Positions 36,002-42,896 of a stretch of DNA of 42,896 nucleotides are shown here, piece by piece. Numbering within the stretch: position 1 is the stretch's first letter; each line of letters opens with the position of its first letter. The DNA is taken from positions 1-42,896 of the forward strand of contig JAOUFG010000009.1 of NCBI GenBank assembly GCA_029858345.1, written 5' to 3'. Under the pieces are notes generated by a model. It saw nothing but the letters and a program-made list of their open reading frames with translations, was not told where the DNA came from and did not search any database. Source of the DNA: Phycisphaerae bacterium (GTDB lineage: Bacteria; Planctomycetota; Phycisphaerae; Sedimentisphaerales; Anaerohalosphaeraceae). The translations under genes and the position numbers were made by a program.

Positions 36002-36933
36002 TTTTCACCTCGCATTTTGATCAGTTCCACAAATGTTTCCAGCCGGGTCTCCAGGTTGGCCTCGGCCGTGTTCTCGTCAATCGGAATGCGCAGCAGCGGC
36101 GTATTGCTGTCGCGGCAGATTGCATTGACATACGGCTCGATGGATGTTTCCGGCATACAGCTCATGGGTAACAGATGAATTACCCCACCAATGTTGTTGT
36201 CGACCAGTTCGAGAAGGTTGGAGATATTCTCCTTGCCATGGCCGCCGAGTCCGCCGTTAAAATATTTTTCCGCCTCTTTGTCGAAGCGCCGCTTTTTCGT
36301 GGGCCAGTGAATCTTCTTGAGGAAATCGCTCTTGATAAACGAGGACAGCGTCACAGTATTAACCGGCTTGGCACCGAGCCTGGTGATCTTATTTTCGATC
36401 TCGTAATTGATCTTTTCATCACAGCAGGTGAACATCTCACCGATGATACCGATATTCGGTCGGTCGGTGGCCCACTGCTGTTTGACTTTGTCGATCTCTC
36501 TGACCCGCCTGTAAAAATGAACCGTCTCTTTCAATATCTTGAAATAGGACGCACCACTGAGTTTTTTGAGGATTCCCAGAATATTGCCGAAATTAACATT
36601 GTACATCTTGAACGTGTAGCCCATGTTTTTCAGGATGAACTCCTGAATCTTCCAATAGTGCCGCAACCGACACTGCCCCTTGGAATCGAACATCAGCAGC
36701 GTATCGGCTCCGTTGTCCAGCGCCTCAACAAAATTTCCAAGCGTCGGCTTCAGCGGAAAACACACCATCTCCGCGGTATTCCGTACCCCAATCTGGATCG
36801 TTTTACCTGTCGTCCGCGGAGGTAATTGAACATTAACTCCGATCCGGGTCAACGCTTCGCCAAGATATTCGATATATTCTTTTCCCATCCAGGGCAATGA
36901 AACGATAGGTTTATTTTCTGTTTGCAGTGTCAT
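35998..36933 (-). CDS. DUF2229/HgdB-like iron-sulfur partner of the activase
   Basis: 311 residues resembling the COG3581/DUF2229 group related to 2-hydroxyacyl-CoA dehydratase subunits and double-cubane-cluster proteins. Conserved-looking cysteines are Cys58 in 'AEMVCFPLKPTLGNF', Cys88 in 'SKGQCRLRHYW', Cys170-171 in 'EMFTCCDE' and Cys259 in 'LPMSCMPE', suitable for an Fe-S cluster at the domain interface. It is shorter than HgdB, and no second dehydratase subunit is encoded nearby, so it may be a one-subunit reductase-type enzyme driven by the activase. The substrate is unknown. GGAG precedes the ATG. It lies between a 31-residue membrane peptide and the activase. Confidence 0.75.
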   Translation of the reverse strand: MTLQTENKPIVSLPWMGKEYIEYLGEALTRIGVNVQLPPRTTGKTIQIGVRNTAEMVCFPLKPTLGNFVEALDNGADTLLMFDSKGQCRLRHYWKIQEFILKNMGYTFKMYNVNFGNILGILKKLSGASYFKILKETVHFYRRVREIDKVKQQWATDRPNIGIIGEMFTCCDEKINYEIENKITRLGAKPVNTVTLSSFIKSDFLKKIHWPTKKRRFDKEAEKYFNGGLGGHGKENISNLLELVDNNIGGVIHLLPMSCMPETSIEPYVNAICRDSNTPLLRIPIDENTAEANLETRLETFVELIKMRGEK

Positions 36934-36964
36934 TTTTCCTTTCTCCTGTGATCTGCGCCATTCG

Positions 36965-37060
36965 TTACCATATGTTTGAGATTAAGATGAACGCCAGCAG
37001 AATTCCGGCGATGATGTAACCGACGATTTCGTGTGTTTTTTGGCTGACGAGTTCTTCCAT
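36965..37060 (-). CDS. 31-residue single-pass membrane peptide
   Basis: A short ORF: ATG at 37060, TAA at 36965-36967. It encodes a hydrophilic start 'MEELVSQKTHEIVG' and one hydrophobic helix 'YIIAGILLAFILI', ending 'SNIW'. GGAG lies 8 bases upstream. It is the first ORF after the sigma54-type promoter and 31 bp upstream of the DUF2229-like gene. Its position, ribosome site and clear helix argue for a real gene, possibly a membrane tether or regulator of the Fe-S pair. No homologue is known to me. Confidence 0.6.
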   Translation of the reverse strand: MEELVSQKTHEIVGYIIAGILLAFILISNIW

Positions 37061-37115
37061 TGTTCTATCTCCGCTATGTTTTAATTTTCAAATTCACAAC
37101 CACAGTTTACATATA

Positions 37116-37131
37116 AACAAATCTCGTGCCA
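37116..37131 (-). promoter_or_regulatory. sigma54 (-24/-12) promoter
   Basis: On the minus strand TGGCACGAGATTTGTT matches the sigma54 consensus TGGCACG-N4-TTGCA/T, with GG and GT separated by 10 bp. Only the C of the -12 GC is replaced by T. The start would fall about 45 bases before the 31-residue ORF. The gene for a sigma54-dependent activator is divergent from it. Confidence 0.7.
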
Positions 37132-37217
37132 GACACATAAACGAACCCGCAAGTCTTTTTAAATAAAACACTTAACAAGAATTCCCCAAAATACTCTGAA
37201 CAAACAAAAAAACACTG

Positions 37218-37247
37218 TTGACATGAAATGCCTACTCAATGTACAAT
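37218..37247 (+). promoter_or_regulatory. sigma70-type promoter of the sigma54 activator gene
   Basis: A perfect TTGACA (37218-37223) and TACAAT (37242-37247) are separated by 18 bp. The ATG follows at 37281. Inverted octamers TCTGAACA (37195-37202) and TGTTCAGA (37261-37268) flank the promoter and could be activator sites. Confidence 0.65.
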
Positions 37248-37280
37248 ATTTGAATATCTATGTTCAGAAAGAGGTGAACA

Positions 37281-38753
37281 ATGGCGAAAATACAGCTCAC
37301 AAGCAATGACCGAGAATTTTTCCAACTTGTATCCGATGCGGCGGCGATTAATCCGTTCAGCGAGGAACGGGCCAGCATTGACCGGAAGATCAGCGGGATT
37401 TCCGGCGCGGACACCCGGCAACAGCGGGTGCTGTATGCGGTTGAGGCGATTCGGCAGCGACTCAAAAAACTGGACGCAAACCAACTCTGTCAATTTAACG
37501 ATTTCTGCGACAAAGATAGGGACCTGATGCGATACACATTTTTGTTCGATGTATACCACACCTACGTCGAGCAGTTCGACGCATTTATCGTCCGGCAGGA
37601 ATTGCACGGCCCCGCCCCGCTGAAAATACCGTTCGGCCCGGAAGCAATCAACGCCCTTCTGCTACGCGGGTTTTCACAAAAACAGGCGGTGCAATACTTT
37701 GCCATGTTCTATCAGATCCGGCGGGCGTTCCACTTTATCAACAAGGGGCTCATCGGCAAGAGCAACTGTATGCAGGCACTGCGGATGGCGCTTTGGAACA
37801 ATATTTTCACCTATGACATCCGGGACTACGAGCGTTTCATGTGGAACAAAATGGAGGACTTTTCGACCCTGCTGACCGGCCCGACCGGCAGCGGCAAAGG
37901 CGCCGCCGCCGCCGCCATCGGCAAAAGCGGCTTTCTCCCCTACGATGCCAACAAGCAGCAGTTCAAGACCGGCTTTGCCGCCCTGTTTATCCCGGTCAAC
38001 CTCTCGCAGTTTGCCGAATCCCTGCTGGAATCGGAGTTGTTCGGCCACACCAAAGGCGCCTTTACCGGCGCCGTCGGCGAGCACCAGGGCGTGCTGGGCC
38101 TGTGCGGACCGCACGGATCGATTTTTCTCGATGAGATCGGAGAGGTCAGCATCCCGGTACAGGTCAAACTGCTAAAGGTGCTGGAAGAACGCATCTTTTA
38201 CCCCGTCGGCAGCCACAAACCCCAACGGTTTGGCGGCCGGGTCATCGCCGCCACGAACCAACCAATCGAACAGCTTCGCGAAGAAGGCGTATTCCGGGAT
38301 GATTTTTATTACCGTCTGTGTTCGGACTGTATTTGCGTCCCCTCACTGGCCGAACGCATCCGGCAGAATCCCAACGAACTGACCGACATGGTCCGGCACT
38401 TCTGCGCGCAGATCTCGGATGGTGAAAACACGGAATTAACAGATCGGGTCATGGATGTGATTACCACGCAATTAGGCGGGATTGCTTATGCCTGGCCCGG
38501 CAATGTCCGCGAACTGGCCCAGTGCATCCGCCGGGTCATTCTCAAACACAGCTATGAGGGACACACCCCAAAAGCCCGCAGCCGACTGGATGACCTCATC
38601 GGCGGAATCGAATCCGGCACCCTGACCGCGGATGAAGTACTGGACAGCTACTGTAAAATACTCTATGATCGTCACGGCACCTACGAACAGGTCGCCAAAC
38701 TGACAGCTCTGGACCGCCGTACAGTGAAAAAACGAATTCAAAACCAAGGATGA
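37281..38753 (+). CDS. sigma54-dependent transcriptional activator (AAA+)
   Basis: A 490-residue bacterial enhancer-binding protein. The N-terminal 190 residues are a helical region that is not a receiver, PAS or GAF domain I recognise. The AAA+ domain has Walker A GPTGSGKG (200-207), the sigma54-contacting GAFTGA loop (259-264) and Walker B 'IFLDEIGEV' (281-289). The C-terminus 'TYEQVAKLTALDRRTVKKRI' is a Fis-type helix-turn-helix. It should remodel RNA polymerase-sigma54 closed complexes. AGAGGTG precedes the ATG. It is divergent from a -24/-12 promoter and overlaps the next gene by 4 bp. The unusual sensor half suggests a signal other than phosphorylation by a histidine kinase. Confidence 0.9.
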   Translation: MAKIQLTSNDREFFQLVSDAAAINPFSEERASIDRKISGISGADTRQQRVLYAVEAIRQRLKKLDANQLCQFNDFCDKDRDLMRYTFLFDVYHTYVEQFDAFIVRQELHGPAPLKIPFGPEAINALLLRGFSQKQAVQYFAMFYQIRRAFHFINKGLIGKSNCMQALRMALWNNIFTYDIRDYERFMWNKMEDFSTLLTGPTGSGKGAAAAAIGKSGFLPYDANKQQFKTGFAALFIPVNLSQFAESLLESELFGHTKGAFTGAVGEHQGVLGLCGPHGSIFLDEIGEVSIPVQVKLLKVLEERIFYPVGSHKPQRFGGRVIAATNQPIEQLREEGVFRDDFYYRLCSDCICVPSLAERIRQNPNELTDMVRHFCAQISDGENTELTDRVMDVITTQLGGIAYAWPGNVRELAQCIRRVILKHSYEGHTPKARSRLDDLIGGIESGTLTADEVLDSYCKILYDRHGTYEQVAKLTALDRRTVKKRIQNQG

Positions 38754-39595
38754 ATAATCCCATGGAGGGTATTCCTATTGCAATCGGAGTGGGTGGAGTT
38801 GTTGCTTTTCTGATTGTGTGGAGGTTGACCACGATCAGCAGGCGAAATAAACGGCGTGCGCGATTGATGGGTAAATCGATTTCCAGTGACTGGCAGACGA
38901 TGCTTATAAAAAATATCCCTCTGTATCATCGGCTCCCGGATGAGTTGAAACAGCAGTTGCACGGATTGGTCAATGTGTTTTTAGCCGAAAAGAACTTTGT
39001 CGGCTGCGGCGGACAGGAGATTTCCGATGAGGTCAAAGTGACCATCGCCGCACAGGCGTGTATGCTGCTGCTGAATCGAAAGCCCCGCTTTTTTCCCAAA
39101 CTCAAAACCATTTACGTCTACCCGCATACCTATGTCGCCAAAAGTATCCAACAGGACAACGGACTGATCGTCGAGGGCAATAGCGTCCGTCTGGGCGAAT
39201 CGTGGCAAAACGGCCCGGTCGTCTTGGCCTGGGACAGCATTACCGGCGGTGCCCGCAATGTTGAGGACGGGCAAAACGTCGTCCTGCATGAGTTCGCCCA
39301 TCAACTGGATCAGGAAGACGGCAGCGCCGACGGGGCCCCCATCCTCGAAAATCATTCGTCCTATCGAACGTGGGCGGCCGTACTGAGTGAAGAATATGAA
39401 AATCTGCAGGAAAAAACCGATCACCGTCGGCGGTCGGTGATTCGCAAGTACGGAGCGACCAATCCGGCGGAGTTTTTCGCCGTGGCGACCGAGGCGTTCT
39501 TCGAAAAACCCAAACAAATGCATAAACGATGTCCGGACCTCTACGACGAACTGAAAAAGTATTACCACCTGGATCCGCTTCAATGGAGCCAGTAG
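38750..39595 (+). CDS. mtfA: MtfA-family zinc metallopeptidase, membrane-anchored
   Basis: 281 residues with an N-terminal membrane helix (9-25), then the MtfA/DUF980 domain. The zinc motif HEFAH (180-184) in 'VVLHEFAHQLDQEDG' and the downstream 'EFFAVATEAFFE' (third ligand region, about 241-252) are intact. E. coli MtfA binds the Mlc repressor and has peptidase activity. Here the ATG overlaps the stop of the sigma54 activator gene by 4 bp, so it may modulate that regulator or its target, which is inference. No separate promoter is seen. Confidence 0.85.
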   Translation: MNNPMEGIPIAIGVGGVVAFLIVWRLTTISRRNKRRARLMGKSISSDWQTMLIKNIPLYHRLPDELKQQLHGLVNVFLAEKNFVGCGGQEISDEVKVTIAAQACMLLLNRKPRFFPKLKTIYVYPHTYVAKSIQQDNGLIVEGNSVRLGESWQNGPVVLAWDSITGGARNVEDGQNVVLHEFAHQLDQEDGSADGAPILENHSSYRTWAAVLSEEYENLQEKTDHRRRSVIRKYGATNPAEFFAVATEAFFEKPKQMHKRCPDLYDELKKYYHLDPLQWSQ

Positions 39596-39633
39596 GGCTA
39601 AAAAACAACATTTTGCATCCGTAAACAACTGCT

Positions 39634-39708
39634 GAGACCGCCGGAAATATCCGATATAATAGGTATTGTGGCTCGGTACGACAAAGGTCCCATAACAGCG
39701 GCGGTCTC
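39634..39708. promoter_or_regulatory. 10-bp inverted repeat around a TATAAT element before the sigma fusion gene
   Basis: GAGACCGCCG (39634-39643) and its exact complement CGGCGGTCTC (39699-39708) flank a perfect TATAAT (39655-39660). The right arm ends just before the ATG at 39710. No good -35 hexamer is seen, which fits a promoter needing an alternative sigma factor or an activator, perhaps the encoded factor itself. Confidence 0.4.
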
Positions 39709-39709
39709 G

Positions 39710-42295
39710 ATGGAAAAAGATTGGAACAAAAACCAAATTGGTGTCCTTCTCGGCGGTGACGCCGAAACATTGGAGGCATTTATCCATGATTTCGGGCCGG
39801 TCATCTATACCTGGATGTATTTTCAGGTGGGTGCCGATGAACAGACCGCTGCGGAATTGACCGGCCGCACCTTCGGGCAGGCCGTACGGAACATAAGCGA
39901 TTTCAACCCCGACGAGCAAACACTCTTCGGGTGGCTCAAAGAACATGCACGGCAAGTACGTGACGAGGGACTGCAGCAGAGACAAATGAAACCCCAACGG
40001 CCCTGGGCCTGGTCACAACTGCCCGATGATATCATGTGCGGATTAGCCCGTCTCCGTAGCGAATCGCTTCAGGAAAAAACGGTTGATAATCCGTTTGTCC
40101 ACGAGATTATTCAGACGACACTGGCTGAACTGGAACAGGCGGATCGTGACCTGCTGATCCACCGCTACAACCACTTGGACACCATTGAGAATATTGCCGA
40201 AGAAATGAACTGTTCAGTCGAAGAGATCCAAAGTCGGTTGTATCGGTGCCGGCATTCGTTCCGAAGAGTTTTTTTTCAGCTTATTTCAAAAGCGAATTCG
40301 GGCTTTTCGGAGTCCAATGCGGCGGGAGAAATCGATACGCTGGATACGAATCTGGAAAGGCTGCTCAGTACCACCGCATCCTATCAGATACTGGATGACA
40401 CGAAAATCGATATGATTCGCCGAAACGTACTTGAGGCCGTGCAGGGGACGGGGCCGCTGCATTCAGAACGTCCCGCCAAAAAACCATATCTCCCTGCTGC
40501 TATCGGGGCGGTGGTAGTCATTTTGATCGCGGGATTGTATATAGCAACACGCAACCAAAGCGATGAGCCGCCTGCTGTCAAAACGCCGGCAGAAACGACA
40601 ACCGCAAAAGAAATCCCGACAAAAAAAATGGGCTCTGAAGCCCCCAAAACGTCGAAATCTAATCTTGACGAAGAAGAGCTGAAACTGGTATTTGCTTTAG
40701 GGCAGGAAGGAAACCTGGAAGCGCTGCTTGAGATTCTCAAGTCCGGGGAGTTTATGAGCCAGGCGACGGCGGCCTACTTTATCGGCAAACTTGGGGACCC
40801 CTCGGCGATTCCTTTGCTGGAACAGGCCGAAGAACAATGGTATGCCGAACCGTCGGATGACAATCCCTTTGCCGTTGCCATTACAGAAATCCTGAACCGA
40901 TTCCCGGAGGCGGCCCCCGTTGCGCCCCCTCACGTTTCCGAACCCAAAGAGACCCCGTTGCCCGCAACGATCCCCATTGTCACAGGGACCGTCAATGATT
41001 TATTAAACCAGCCGATTGCGAATGTCGTCTTGGAGCTGTCAGAAAACACCTTGTTTTCCAGCCAAAAAACCGGTAGAAAAATTGCCTCCGTCAAAACAAG
41101 CCCGGAGGGCCAATACGAATTTACCGCCGCGTATGAAGGCCCCGCTTATTTGACCGCAAAGATACAGGCCGGAGATACCCGGTCAATGACACGGGCTGTC
41201 TGGTGCAAGAAAGATTCCGTGTGTATCGCAAATTTCGGCGGCAAACCCGTCTTGACAGGAACGGTTTTCATTGACGGCATCGCCCTTTCCAGTCAAACCG
41301 TGTATTTGAGTGATACGCTTGACATTGATTACGCGTCTTTCGGTCAGGAGATTATGACTGACCCGGCGGGCCGCTTTTCTTTCTCGGGGGTGCCCGCAGG
41401 CCTGTATTATCTCCTGAACAAGGGGTTTGACAATCAGATCCGTCGATTGGCCATGATCGAAATGCCTGAGCAGGAAATGTATAATGCCAATATCAATCTC
41501 GAAACGGCCTTTGTATCAACAGCATATCAATCTGATCCAAATACTGCCGTCGCGACCGAGGCGGTGCTCGCTTACGGAATGGATATATCCGACAATCTGA
41601 GCCAGGTTCAGGCCGTTATGGACACGGACGGCTCTGTGCGGTTCGAAAAGGTCATTCCCGGTGCCTATGTTCTGAAGGTGGGATTGGACAGCGGCGTTTG
41701 GATTCAGCAAAACGTGGACGTTACAGACGGACCAGACGAACAATTTATTCAACTCGACCCCGTCCCGAGTGAAACGGCGGTATTGACAGGACGCTTTCTT
41801 GAGGCCAGCCCGGTGAATCTGTTCCTGACCAATGCCAATCAACAACTGCATATTGATATCGCACCCAGTGCCGACGGCTCCTACGAACTCGTAAACATCC
41901 CTGCCGATGTCTATAGTCTGGCGACTTTTGTCAGGGGTCAGCTCTTTGAATTTACCCAGGTTGACCTACAGTATGAGCCGGAAATGGTGCTGGATATTGA
42001 TCCGACTGTAATTCTCGAATCCCTTAGTCCTCTTTATGTAGTGGTAGCGGACGAAACGGGGCTTATCCTGTCCGAATCACAAATCTGGCTAAACCAGGAA
42101 AGTGACATCATCACCGCTTCATCAACCGGACGCGGGGCGTTCCTGGCAGCCCCACCAGGAGATTACACCCTTTCAGCCGCCCATCCGGGGTTCCCGACCC
42201 AAAACCTGGAAGTTAATCTGAAATCCTCTTCGCTTTTGGCTGAACCGAATGCCGACAACACGATTCTGTTTCAACCGGGCACAGATGGCCCTTAA
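39710..42295 (+). CDS. membrane-tethered ECF sigma factor with HEAT-like and carboxypeptidase-regulatory-like extracytoplasmic domains
   Basis: 861 residues from the ATG (a GTG 42 bp upstream is in frame). Residues about 12-90 resemble sigma region 2 and 130-190 region 4, with 'LEQADRDLLIHRYNHLDTIENIAEEMNCS' read as helix-turn-helix (cited in part). A linker leads to one membrane helix (259-280, 'AAIGAVVVILIAGLYIA'). Beyond it come a Thr/Lys/Pro linker, a HEAT-like repeat pair (320-398, 'ATAAYFIGKLGDPSAIPLLEQA') and several carboxypeptidase-regulatory-like beta domains (from 422; for example 'VTGTVNDLLNQPIANVVLEL', 'LTGTVFIDGIALSSQTVYLS', 'DPAGRFSFSGVPAGLYYLL'). The sigma half would be cytoplasmic and the beta domains outside. 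Release by proteolysis or signalling while tethered are both possible. Planctomycete ECF factors with large C-terminal extensions are known, but not this combination to my knowledge. Confidence 0.8.
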   Translation: MEKDWNKNQIGVLLGGDAETLEAFIHDFGPVIYTWMYFQVGADEQTAAELTGRTFGQAVRNISDFNPDEQTLFGWLKEHARQVRDEGLQQRQMKPQRPWAWSQLPDDIMCGLARLRSESLQEKTVDNPFVHEIIQTTLAELEQADRDLLIHRYNHLDTIENIAEEMNCSVEEIQSRLYRCRHSFRRVFFQLISKANSGFSESNAAGEIDTLDTNLERLLSTTASYQILDDTKIDMIRRNVLEAVQGTGPLHSERPAKKPYLPAAIGAVVVILIAGLYIATRNQSDEPPAVKTPAETTTAKEIPTKKMGSEAPKTSKSNLDEEELKLVFALGQEGNLEALLEILKSGEFMSQATAAYFIGKLGDPSAIPLLEQAEEQWYAEPSDDNPFAVAITEILNRFPEAAPVAPPHVSEPKETPLPATIPIVTGTVNDLLNQPIANVVLELSENTLFSSQKTGRKIASVKTSPEGQYEFTAAYEGPAYLTAKIQAGDTRSMTRAVWCKKDSVCIANFGGKPVLTGTVFIDGIALSSQTVYLSDTLDIDYASFGQEIMTDPAGRFSFSGVPAGLYYLLNKGFDNQIRRLAMIEMPEQEMYNANINLETAFVSTAYQSDPNTAVATEAVLAYGMDISDNLSQVQAVMDTDGSVRFEKVIPGAYVLKVGLDSGVWIQQNVDVTDGPDEQFIQLDPVPSETAVLTGRFLEASPVNLFLTNANQQLHIDIAPSADGSYELVNIPADVYSLATFVRGQLFEFTQVDLQYEPEMVLDIDPTVILESLSPLYVVVADETGLILSESQIWLNQESDIITASSTGRGAFLAAPPGDYTLSAAHPGFPTQNLEVNLKSSSLLAEPNADNTILFQPGTDGP

Positions 42296-42403
42296 ATCAC
42301 ATAATAACCGTTTCCTTTTCAAATATTTGTCAAAAGACCAAGAGTCTATCCTAATAAGAAAACCACGTTGAAACGAAAAATTTTTCTTGTCAAGACGCAA
42401 TTT

Positions 42404-42432
42404 TTGGATAAACTGCTTGGCTTTGGTACACT
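42404..42432 (+). promoter_or_regulatory. candidate tRNA promoter
   Basis: TTGGAT (42404-42409) and TACACT (42427-42432) are spaced by 17 bp. The start would be just a few bases before the tRNA-Met 5' end. TACACT is also the -10 proposed for rnc. Confidence 0.4.
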
Positions 42433-42441
42433 CAGACTTTA

Positions 42442-42515
42442 GGCGGCGTAGCTCAGTTGGTTAGAGCATGGGATTCATAAGCCCAGGGTCGGTGGTTCGA
42501 ATCCACCCGCCGCTA
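42442..42515 (+). tRNA. tRNA-Met (CAT anticodon)
   Basis: A 74-base cloverleaf. The acceptor arm is GGCGGCG/CGCCGCT with a G-U first pair; the D arm is GCTC/GAGC; the anticodon CAT is at 42476-42478; the T arm is GGTGG-TTCGAAT-CCACC; the discriminator is A and no CCA is encoded. The anticodon stem has an A-G mismatch at 31-39. The sequence looks like elongator tRNA-Met; an Ile (lysidine-modified CAT) identity is less likely but not excluded. Confidence 0.93.
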
Positions 42516-42517
42516 TT

Positions 42518-42552
42518 GCCGAAAACAAGCTCTCGATGAGCTTGTTTTCGGC
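42518..42552. repeat. perfect 15-bp inverted repeat between the tRNAs
   Basis: GCCGAAAACAAGCTC (42518-42532) and GAGCTTGTTTTCGGC (42538-42552) form a perfect stem with a 5-base loop, starting 2 bases after the tRNA-Met. No T tract follows on the plus strand, so it may be a processing or attenuating hairpin rather than a full terminator. Confidence 0.7.
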
Positions 42553-42593
42553 TTATTAGACAATCGGCAATAATCAATAGTCAATTGATATAC

Positions 42594-42666
42594 GCCCCCA
42601 TCGTCTAGCGGCCTAGGACGCCGGGTTCTCATCCCGGTAACAGGGGTTCGAGTCCCCTTGGGGGTA
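42594..42666 (+). tRNA. tRNA-Glu (CTC anticodon)
   Basis: A 73-base cloverleaf. The acceptor is GCCCCCA/TGGGGGT, with 'TCGTCTAGCGGCCTAGGAC' giving the D region typical of tRNA-Glu. The anticodon stem is CCGGG/CCCGG around TTCTCAT, with CTC at 42628-42630. The T arm is AGGGG-TTCGAGT-CCCCT; the discriminator is A; CCA is not encoded. A small hairpin CTGCC-TTTA-GGCAG follows at once (42667-42680). Confidence 0.94.
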
Positions 42667-42852
42667 CTGCCTTTAGGCAGATAAGATCGAGGAATCATTT
42701 GCGTGTATCGACCCGCTCCCGTTGGTCGCTCGTCTATGGCAAGATTGTTGCCGCGGTTCGGTGGCTGTCCACCCAACCGTATTTCAACAGGACGGGGGCG
42801 TTTGGGGCGGATATCTACAGTCTGTGTGAATACGTATCTACTATGACAAAGA

Positions 42853-42872
42853 GGGGGGGGGGGGGGGGGGGG
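42853..42872. other. 20-base poly-G run
   Basis: An uninterrupted run of 20 G residues lies 24 bases from the window end. Such runs at contig ends often come from two-colour sequencing chemistry or a mis-assembled edge, so the last bases should be treated with caution. The preceding 170 bp show no convincing gene. Confidence 0.8.
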
Positions 42873-42896
42873 CACTTCTTTTGGAGGTTCAGAGGG

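Follow-up and report, generated by a model that had tools for sequence, protein, structure and literature searches.

An ECF-type sigma domain fused to its own putative membrane anti-sigma partner in Phycisphaerae

The 42,896-nt window (the whole stretch of DNA that was analysed) contains on its forward strand a gene at 39710–42295, coding for 861 amino acids and a stop, in which an ECF-type sigma domain, a membrane helix and a long extracytoplasmic part seem to be joined in one chain. Is this gene genuine, where does its C-terminal part come from, and what can a sigma domain do when it is tied to the membrane? The initial annotation took it for a one-protein signal system, in which sensing outside controls a tethered sigma factor and a separate anti-sigma factor is bypassed. 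The features located below are all on the + strand unless another is given.

The gene is defined by its open frame and by alignment of homologues. It sits close to the end of contig C78, in a 3.0 Mb genome that is 99% complete, and falls within a stop-free frame of 897 codons (39602–42292). The ATG at 39710 gives the 861-residue product, and its Met-Glu start lines up with that of most homologues whose N-terminus is preserved; a GTG at 39668 is a possible alternative start upstream. Mis-assembly, which the initial annotation had named as one of two findings that would undo its reading, or a sequencing error could have joined two genes here, and the two halves are indeed separate genes in other genera, so that a lost stop could fuse them. 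However, full-length single-frame homologues with 44–55% identity are present in independent MAGs from several projects, such homologues also occur at ~33% identity in another genus, and both halves of the protein are conserved across these homologues. Because intact homologues occur in independent MAGs, the frame is taken as genuine, and there is next to no chance that it is an artefact. The named relatives of the protein come from Phycisphaerae and other Planctomycetota MAGs.

The N-terminal part of the protein, residues ~1–190, is an ECF-type sigma domain, which in the model proposed below would be cytoplasmic. The sigma70-ECF profile TIGR02937 matches residues 20–183 with an E-value of 2.9e-9 and 36.8 bits (41.0 bits in the genome-wide search), below the curated cut-off of 42.9. 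Sigma70_r4_2 matches residues 132–179 (E 4.1e-5), slightly below its cut-off, and Pfam Sigma70_r2 gives no match in the protein. The predicted model of residues 1–257 has pLDDT 85.7 and pTM 0.82, and its top matches are the ECF sigma factors AlgU, SigW and E. coli sigma-E. The best solved structures are AlgU-MucA, SigW-RsiW and sigma-E-RseA, which are anti-sigma-bound ECFs. The model has the sigma2 and sigma4 fold without region 3 (AlgU, Z 11.7, 158 aligned residues); taken by region, it matches region 2 of sigma-E with Z 11.0 and rmsd 2.6, and region 4 of SigL with Z 8.5. The whole-domain rmsd is ~10–14 Å to anti-sigma-bound ECFs and ~22–27 Å to RNA-polymerase-bound ECFs. This difference hints that the modelled sigma domain is in a closed state, or else comes from a habit of structure prediction. 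Region 2, assigned from profile and model, covers residues 16–90 (39755–39979), and its conserved region 2.2 Q and acidic residues are replaced. The sigma2-sigma4 linker, residues 91–127 (39980–40090), is defined by alignment and conservation and includes the motif QRPWAWS, conserved in the window's genus and in one homologue of genus g14. Region 4, residues 128–190 (40091–40279), retains its helix-turn-helix by Sigma70_r4_2, conservation and structure. Together with the HEAT-like unit described below, it is among the best-conserved segments in the window's genus, with a mean identity of 63%.

A single transmembrane helix is formed by residues 260–283 (40487–40558), as seen from hydrophobicity and as a helix in the model, with the N-terminus predicted to be inside. 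On the cytoplasmic side it is preceded by a juxtamembrane two-helix segment with an NLExLL motif, residues 205–248 (40322–40453), which is defined by alignment and model; the helices are 208–220 and 230–246, and the stretch 249–259 leading to the membrane helix is flexible. This segment corresponds to the N-terminal end of the separate partner proteins described below, and N214-L215-E216 are invariant among all fused proteins aligned. The motif [DE]xN[ILV]xx[LF][LIVMYF] is found in 9 of 10 membrane-protein N-termini following the ECF genes nearest to the fused sigma, and in 0 of 107 control genes. Five of the ten partners were found partly because the profile read through the stop into the next gene; among the five chosen by sigma match alone, four have the motif. 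It is present in only 3/23 of a wider partner set with more distant sigma factors. For the anti-sigma contact, this segment is the strongest candidate. The listed structure alignments end near residue 206, one FixJ chain reaching 224, and give no match for the two helices, which does not speak for a new fold.

On the other side of the membrane helix, a HEAT-like unit is recognized at residues 319–402 (40664–40915) from a weak profile match, conservation and the model. It is presumed extracytoplasmic and is the hallmark of the partner family, as well as its best-conserved segment. HEAT_2 scores 18.8 bits against a gathering cut-off of 27.7, and the model has one unit of five short helices. The ectodomain that follows, residues 422–861 (40973–42292), is a tandem array of CarboxypepD_reg/transthyretin-like beta-sandwiches, assigned by PF13620 and the model. 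CarboxypepD_reg scores 76.2 bits in three stretches, above its gathering cut-off of 32.3, and the beta domains match carboxypeptidase D domain II with Z 10.0 and transthyretin with Z 9.5 in a full-length model that is poorer (pLDDT 69.2, pTM 0.47) than that of residues 1–257. The initial annotation had assigned sigma regions 2 and 4, one membrane helix, and HEAT-like and carboxypeptidase-regulatory-like domains to this frame, and had proposed structure prediction for both ends. Profiles and structure matches bear out the sigma regions, the helix and the CarboxypepD_reg domains, while the HEAT part comes down to one weak unit and not an array.

The origin of the C-terminal part is suggested by genes of related organisms. 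A profile of the first 430 residues was searched against 161 genomes of the order. It showed the one-frame fusion in four genera of the window's family; elsewhere, the half with the membrane helix and HEAT unit occurs alone, mostly in frames of ~430–1290 aa. For a survey of these partners we combined 20 places picked by partner match with the loci of the family search, and applied an ECF profile upstream. In 23 of 26 unfused partner frames, the gene immediately before on the same strand is an ECF gene, which overlaps the frame or is at most 50 nt away; one of the remaining three sits at a contig edge. Since ECF genes presumably make up only about one gene in a hundred here, this adjacency is far beyond chance. 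Some partners show signs of a zinc anti-sigma domain: 8 of 27 match an NCBIfam anti-sigma model, four match zf-HC2, and HX3CX2C is visible in five. The window's own genome has a split pair on contig C147, where the genes for a 197-aa ECF and a 213-aa partner containing a HEAT-like unit overlap by 8 nt. Among 392 sampled genomes of the phylum, the HEAT module of the partner is nearly confined to the window's order.

The C-terminal two thirds of the fusion protein are homologous to stand-alone membrane proteins encoded downstream of ECF genes. Because this family sits there, some members with a zinc anti-sigma domain, we read the C-terminal part as a fused-in anti-sigma/sensor, and the whole protein as a sigma factor joined to its own putative membrane anti-sigma/sensor. 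The HX3CX2C motif is absent from the window's fusion protein, and no stand-alone anti-sigma gene was found next to the fused gene in the genus. The one-protein system of the initial annotation survives as a tethered sigma with an outside sensor in one chain; its bypass of an anti-sigma factor does not, as the homologues indicate that this factor is built in. An unnamed HEAT-marked family of putative membrane anti-sigma proteins is thereby defined in Phycisphaerae, where regulation is little studied.

A survey of this architecture in Phycisphaerae, also proposed with the initial annotation, places the single-frame fusion in 18 genomes from four genera of the window's family; a search of 397 genomes of the class yielded no further one-frame fusions of this kind. 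When 55 sigma domains are placed in a tree, the 18 fused proteins group together in a single clade with support of 100/99, next to split genes from the same subfamily, and two fused proteins from another family of the order (G144 and G145) branch apart from this clade. Two fusion events are the simplest reading of this tree. The second sigma/partner fusion in the other family is seen at L096:2670–5042 and L104:1904–4270, with 791 and 789 aa. A series is thus available within one order, from a separate gene pair to a single-chain hybrid and to a decayed sigma domain, with at least two fusion events. It makes testable whether fusion to an inhibitor substitutes for binding affinity, and for what purpose a sigma domain is retained after its polymerase contacts erode.

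Sigma/anti-sigma hybrids have already been described, namely IutY, ECF48, ECF52 and ECF53 (PMC8999054, PMC5411451, PMC5826349). In Pseudomonas putida IutY (ECF243), a precedent that has been tested, the sigma domain becomes active only after cleavage of the chain by a site-1 protease and RseP (PMC5411451, PMC8999054). Our preferred reading, to which we give a probability of about 0.6, is a sigma/anti-sigma hybrid with its sigma domain held inactive at the membrane and freed by regulated proteolysis as in IutY. At rest, the tether and probably also the two-helix segment would keep the sigma domain inactive at the membrane. A signal received by the ectodomain would then cause the chain to be cut, the likeliest enzymes being a site-1 protease and, after it, an RseP-like site-2 protease, and the freed sigma domain would direct RNA polymerase. 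The fusion, its origin from a gene pair, the sigma fold, the single membrane helix and the spread are read from the genomes and models, whereas we infer the juxtamembrane inhibition, the IutY-like release and the activity of the freed sigma domain. Proteolysis near residues 255–285 is plausible. The window genome encodes RseP-like and Prc-like proteases, which are near-universal and hence nothing specific to this system. Several points weigh against this reading: the fused sigma domains are strongly diverged and altered in region 2.2 (see below), the window protein lacks a zinc anti-sigma motif, and the order-wide link is to the membrane/HEAT half, which is only a putative inhibitor.

The chief rival of the hybrid reading takes the domain as a pseudo-sigma, which keeps the sigma fold, does no RNA polymerase work and serves as a membrane-held decoy or scaffold, for example by binding the anti-sigma of a paralogous pair or some other regulator. 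PhyR, with a sigma-like domain that binds NepR, is a parallel. Such a role comes into question because conserved residues expected to contact RNA polymerase have been lost and one sister genus is without DNA-binding helices. At the positions of region 2.2 equivalent to D403, Q406 and E407 of sigma-70, the window protein has E, G and R. Among 35 split sigmas, 22 have Q at the Q406 position and 23 an acidic residue at the E407 position, and none of the 18 fused sigmas has either; being clade-wide, these counts reflect one or few evolutionary events, not 18 independent ones. Leave-one-out scores place the fused sigma domains as more diverged than almost all unfused ones: sigma2 of split genes scores 35–81 bits (median 65.6), and that of fused genes 32–44.5 bits in g1, the window's genus, and 10–31 bits in g12, g14 and g2. 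In g12 the sigma4 score falls to 2–13 bits and the region 4 helix-turn-helix is gone, though the protein otherwise persists. The g12 fused proteins (L047, L048 and L039) are ~490–525 aa long and, besides this loss, have an ectodomain of which only the HEAT unit and a tail that is acidic and rich in Asn and Pro remain. On the other hand, the window's genus retains the region 4 helix-turn-helix with the high identity given above, region 2 still folds as sigma2 with a conserved W75, and all seven g1 members keep D or E at the D403 position. The missing region 2.2 contacts lower confidence in an active sigma, and not in sigma descent. We regard the pseudo-sigma role as possible but unlikely. It is doubtful, too, that fusion itself made the sigma domain a membrane-bound pseudo-sigma with a non-transcriptional role, losing polymerase contacts first (in all fused proteins) and DNA-binding helices later (in g12). 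If true, it would be a sigma-shaped signalling module, for example one titrating other anti-sigma factors.

The sigma domain could also work uncleaved, if binding at the ectodomain shifted the conformation across the helix and the membrane-bound sigma engaged RNA polymerase while still attached. The presence of everything in a single chain, the lack of a regulator encoded separately close by in the genus, and the flexible juxtamembrane stretch are in keeping with this. However, IutY, the closest studied hybrid, requires proteolysis (PMC5411451), and the behaviour of ECF52 is consistent with a proteolysis model (PMC5826349). A lone membrane helix without dimerisation would moreover be a poor route for a conformational signal, and we consider this mode quite improbable.

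The window protein is probably a one-protein signalling system of a known class, with new parts and an unusually altered sigma domain. As in IutY, a cytosolic ECF sigma, a single membrane segment and an extracytoplasmic part are found in one chain, and the chain is a hybrid of two normally separate proteins (PMC5411451). IutY, with 374 aa, is part of TonB-receptor cell-surface signalling, whereas the window protein has 861 aa, no matching receptor gene adjoining it, and, unlike IutY, a HEAT-like unit, tandem CarboxypepD_reg domains and an altered region 2.2. With ECF52, ECF48 and ECF53 of Actinobacteria, for example SCO4117, it shares the C-terminal fusion, a membrane helix and an extracytoplasmic sensor, and proteolysis is assumed to free these sigma factors too (PMC8999054, PMC5826349). 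Their anti-sigma domain is of the zinc-finger type, and SCO4117 has a carbohydrate-binding module; the window protein is without both of these; ECF52 has been reported only from Actinobacteria. Neither the domains of the protein nor the neighbouring genes include a TonB-type receptor system, or a zinc finger with a carbohydrate-binding module. The stand-alone partners resemble RseA, RskA and RsiW in lying directly downstream of an ECF gene and having a single membrane helix, their role being suggested by position and some zinc motifs; unlike those proteins, the window's partner part is fused to the sigma, and its cytoplasmic portion is only ~45 residues long and without zinc ligands. C-terminal extensions of WD40 or CarboxypepD_reg type have been reported for planctomycetal ECF sigma factors, and ECF sigma factors of Tuwongella were found in detergent-soluble fractions (PMC8567305). 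These share the phylum and the long C-terminal extension with the window protein. At L051:8615–12700 on the − strand there is a 1362-aa ECF that keeps regions 2 and 4 intact and is fused to five stretches of CarboxypepD_reg. It has full Sigma70_r2 and Sigma70_r4 matches and no match to the membrane-helix and HEAT partner profile, an architecture unlike that of the window protein, which comes from another, HEAT-marked family of putative anti-sigma proteins. New here are the HEAT-marked partner family, the split state seen directly in relatives, two separate fusions and sigma erosion after fusion.

Upstream of the fused gene, 59 nt before its ATG, is a promoter-like decamer resembling a −10 element, CCGATATAAT (39651–39660). 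An identical copy precedes the fused gene in five genomes of the same genus, the window's included, and in one g14 genome, with near matches in another g14 genome (9/10) and in L065 (8/10). The decamer stands 42–89 nt before the start codon in 6 of 8 genomes of two genera, where the flanking DNA does not align, and its chance expectation in the window is 0.04. No −35 element common to these upstream regions is visible. As a regulon marker the decamer was rejected, with 16 genome sites against 10 for the reversed control and no clear enrichment.

Further upstream, a sigma-54-type AAA+ activator with a GAFTGA motif (37281–38753; Sigma54_activat, E 7.4e-40) precedes the fused gene in four genomes of the genus, the synteny including L061, L064 and L065, once at a distance of ~7 kb. 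It is ~65–78% identical across the genus, and its N-terminal ~190 residues have no Pfam match. Sigma-54 control of the fused gene was considered and dropped, as TGGC[AC]C-N5-TTGC occurs neither in 36800–42896 on both strands nor on the + strand of L061, L064, L065 and L067. Between activator and fused gene the window has an MtfA-like M90 metallopeptidase (38750–39595; PF06167, E 4.8e-91), which adjoins the fused gene in L067 and lies near it, upstream, in L061. In the sister genera, neither the activator nor the peptidase was found to adjoin the fused gene. Elsewhere in the same genome, ECF-type matches lie within frames of 502 and 551 codons (C56:4521–4988 and C146:13763–14266), possibly extended or fused sigmas. 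Just downstream of the fused gene, a proline-rich ORF on the opposite strand (42513–42896) is probably spurious, and genes for tRNA-Met (42442–42515) and tRNA-Glu (42594–42667) are present.
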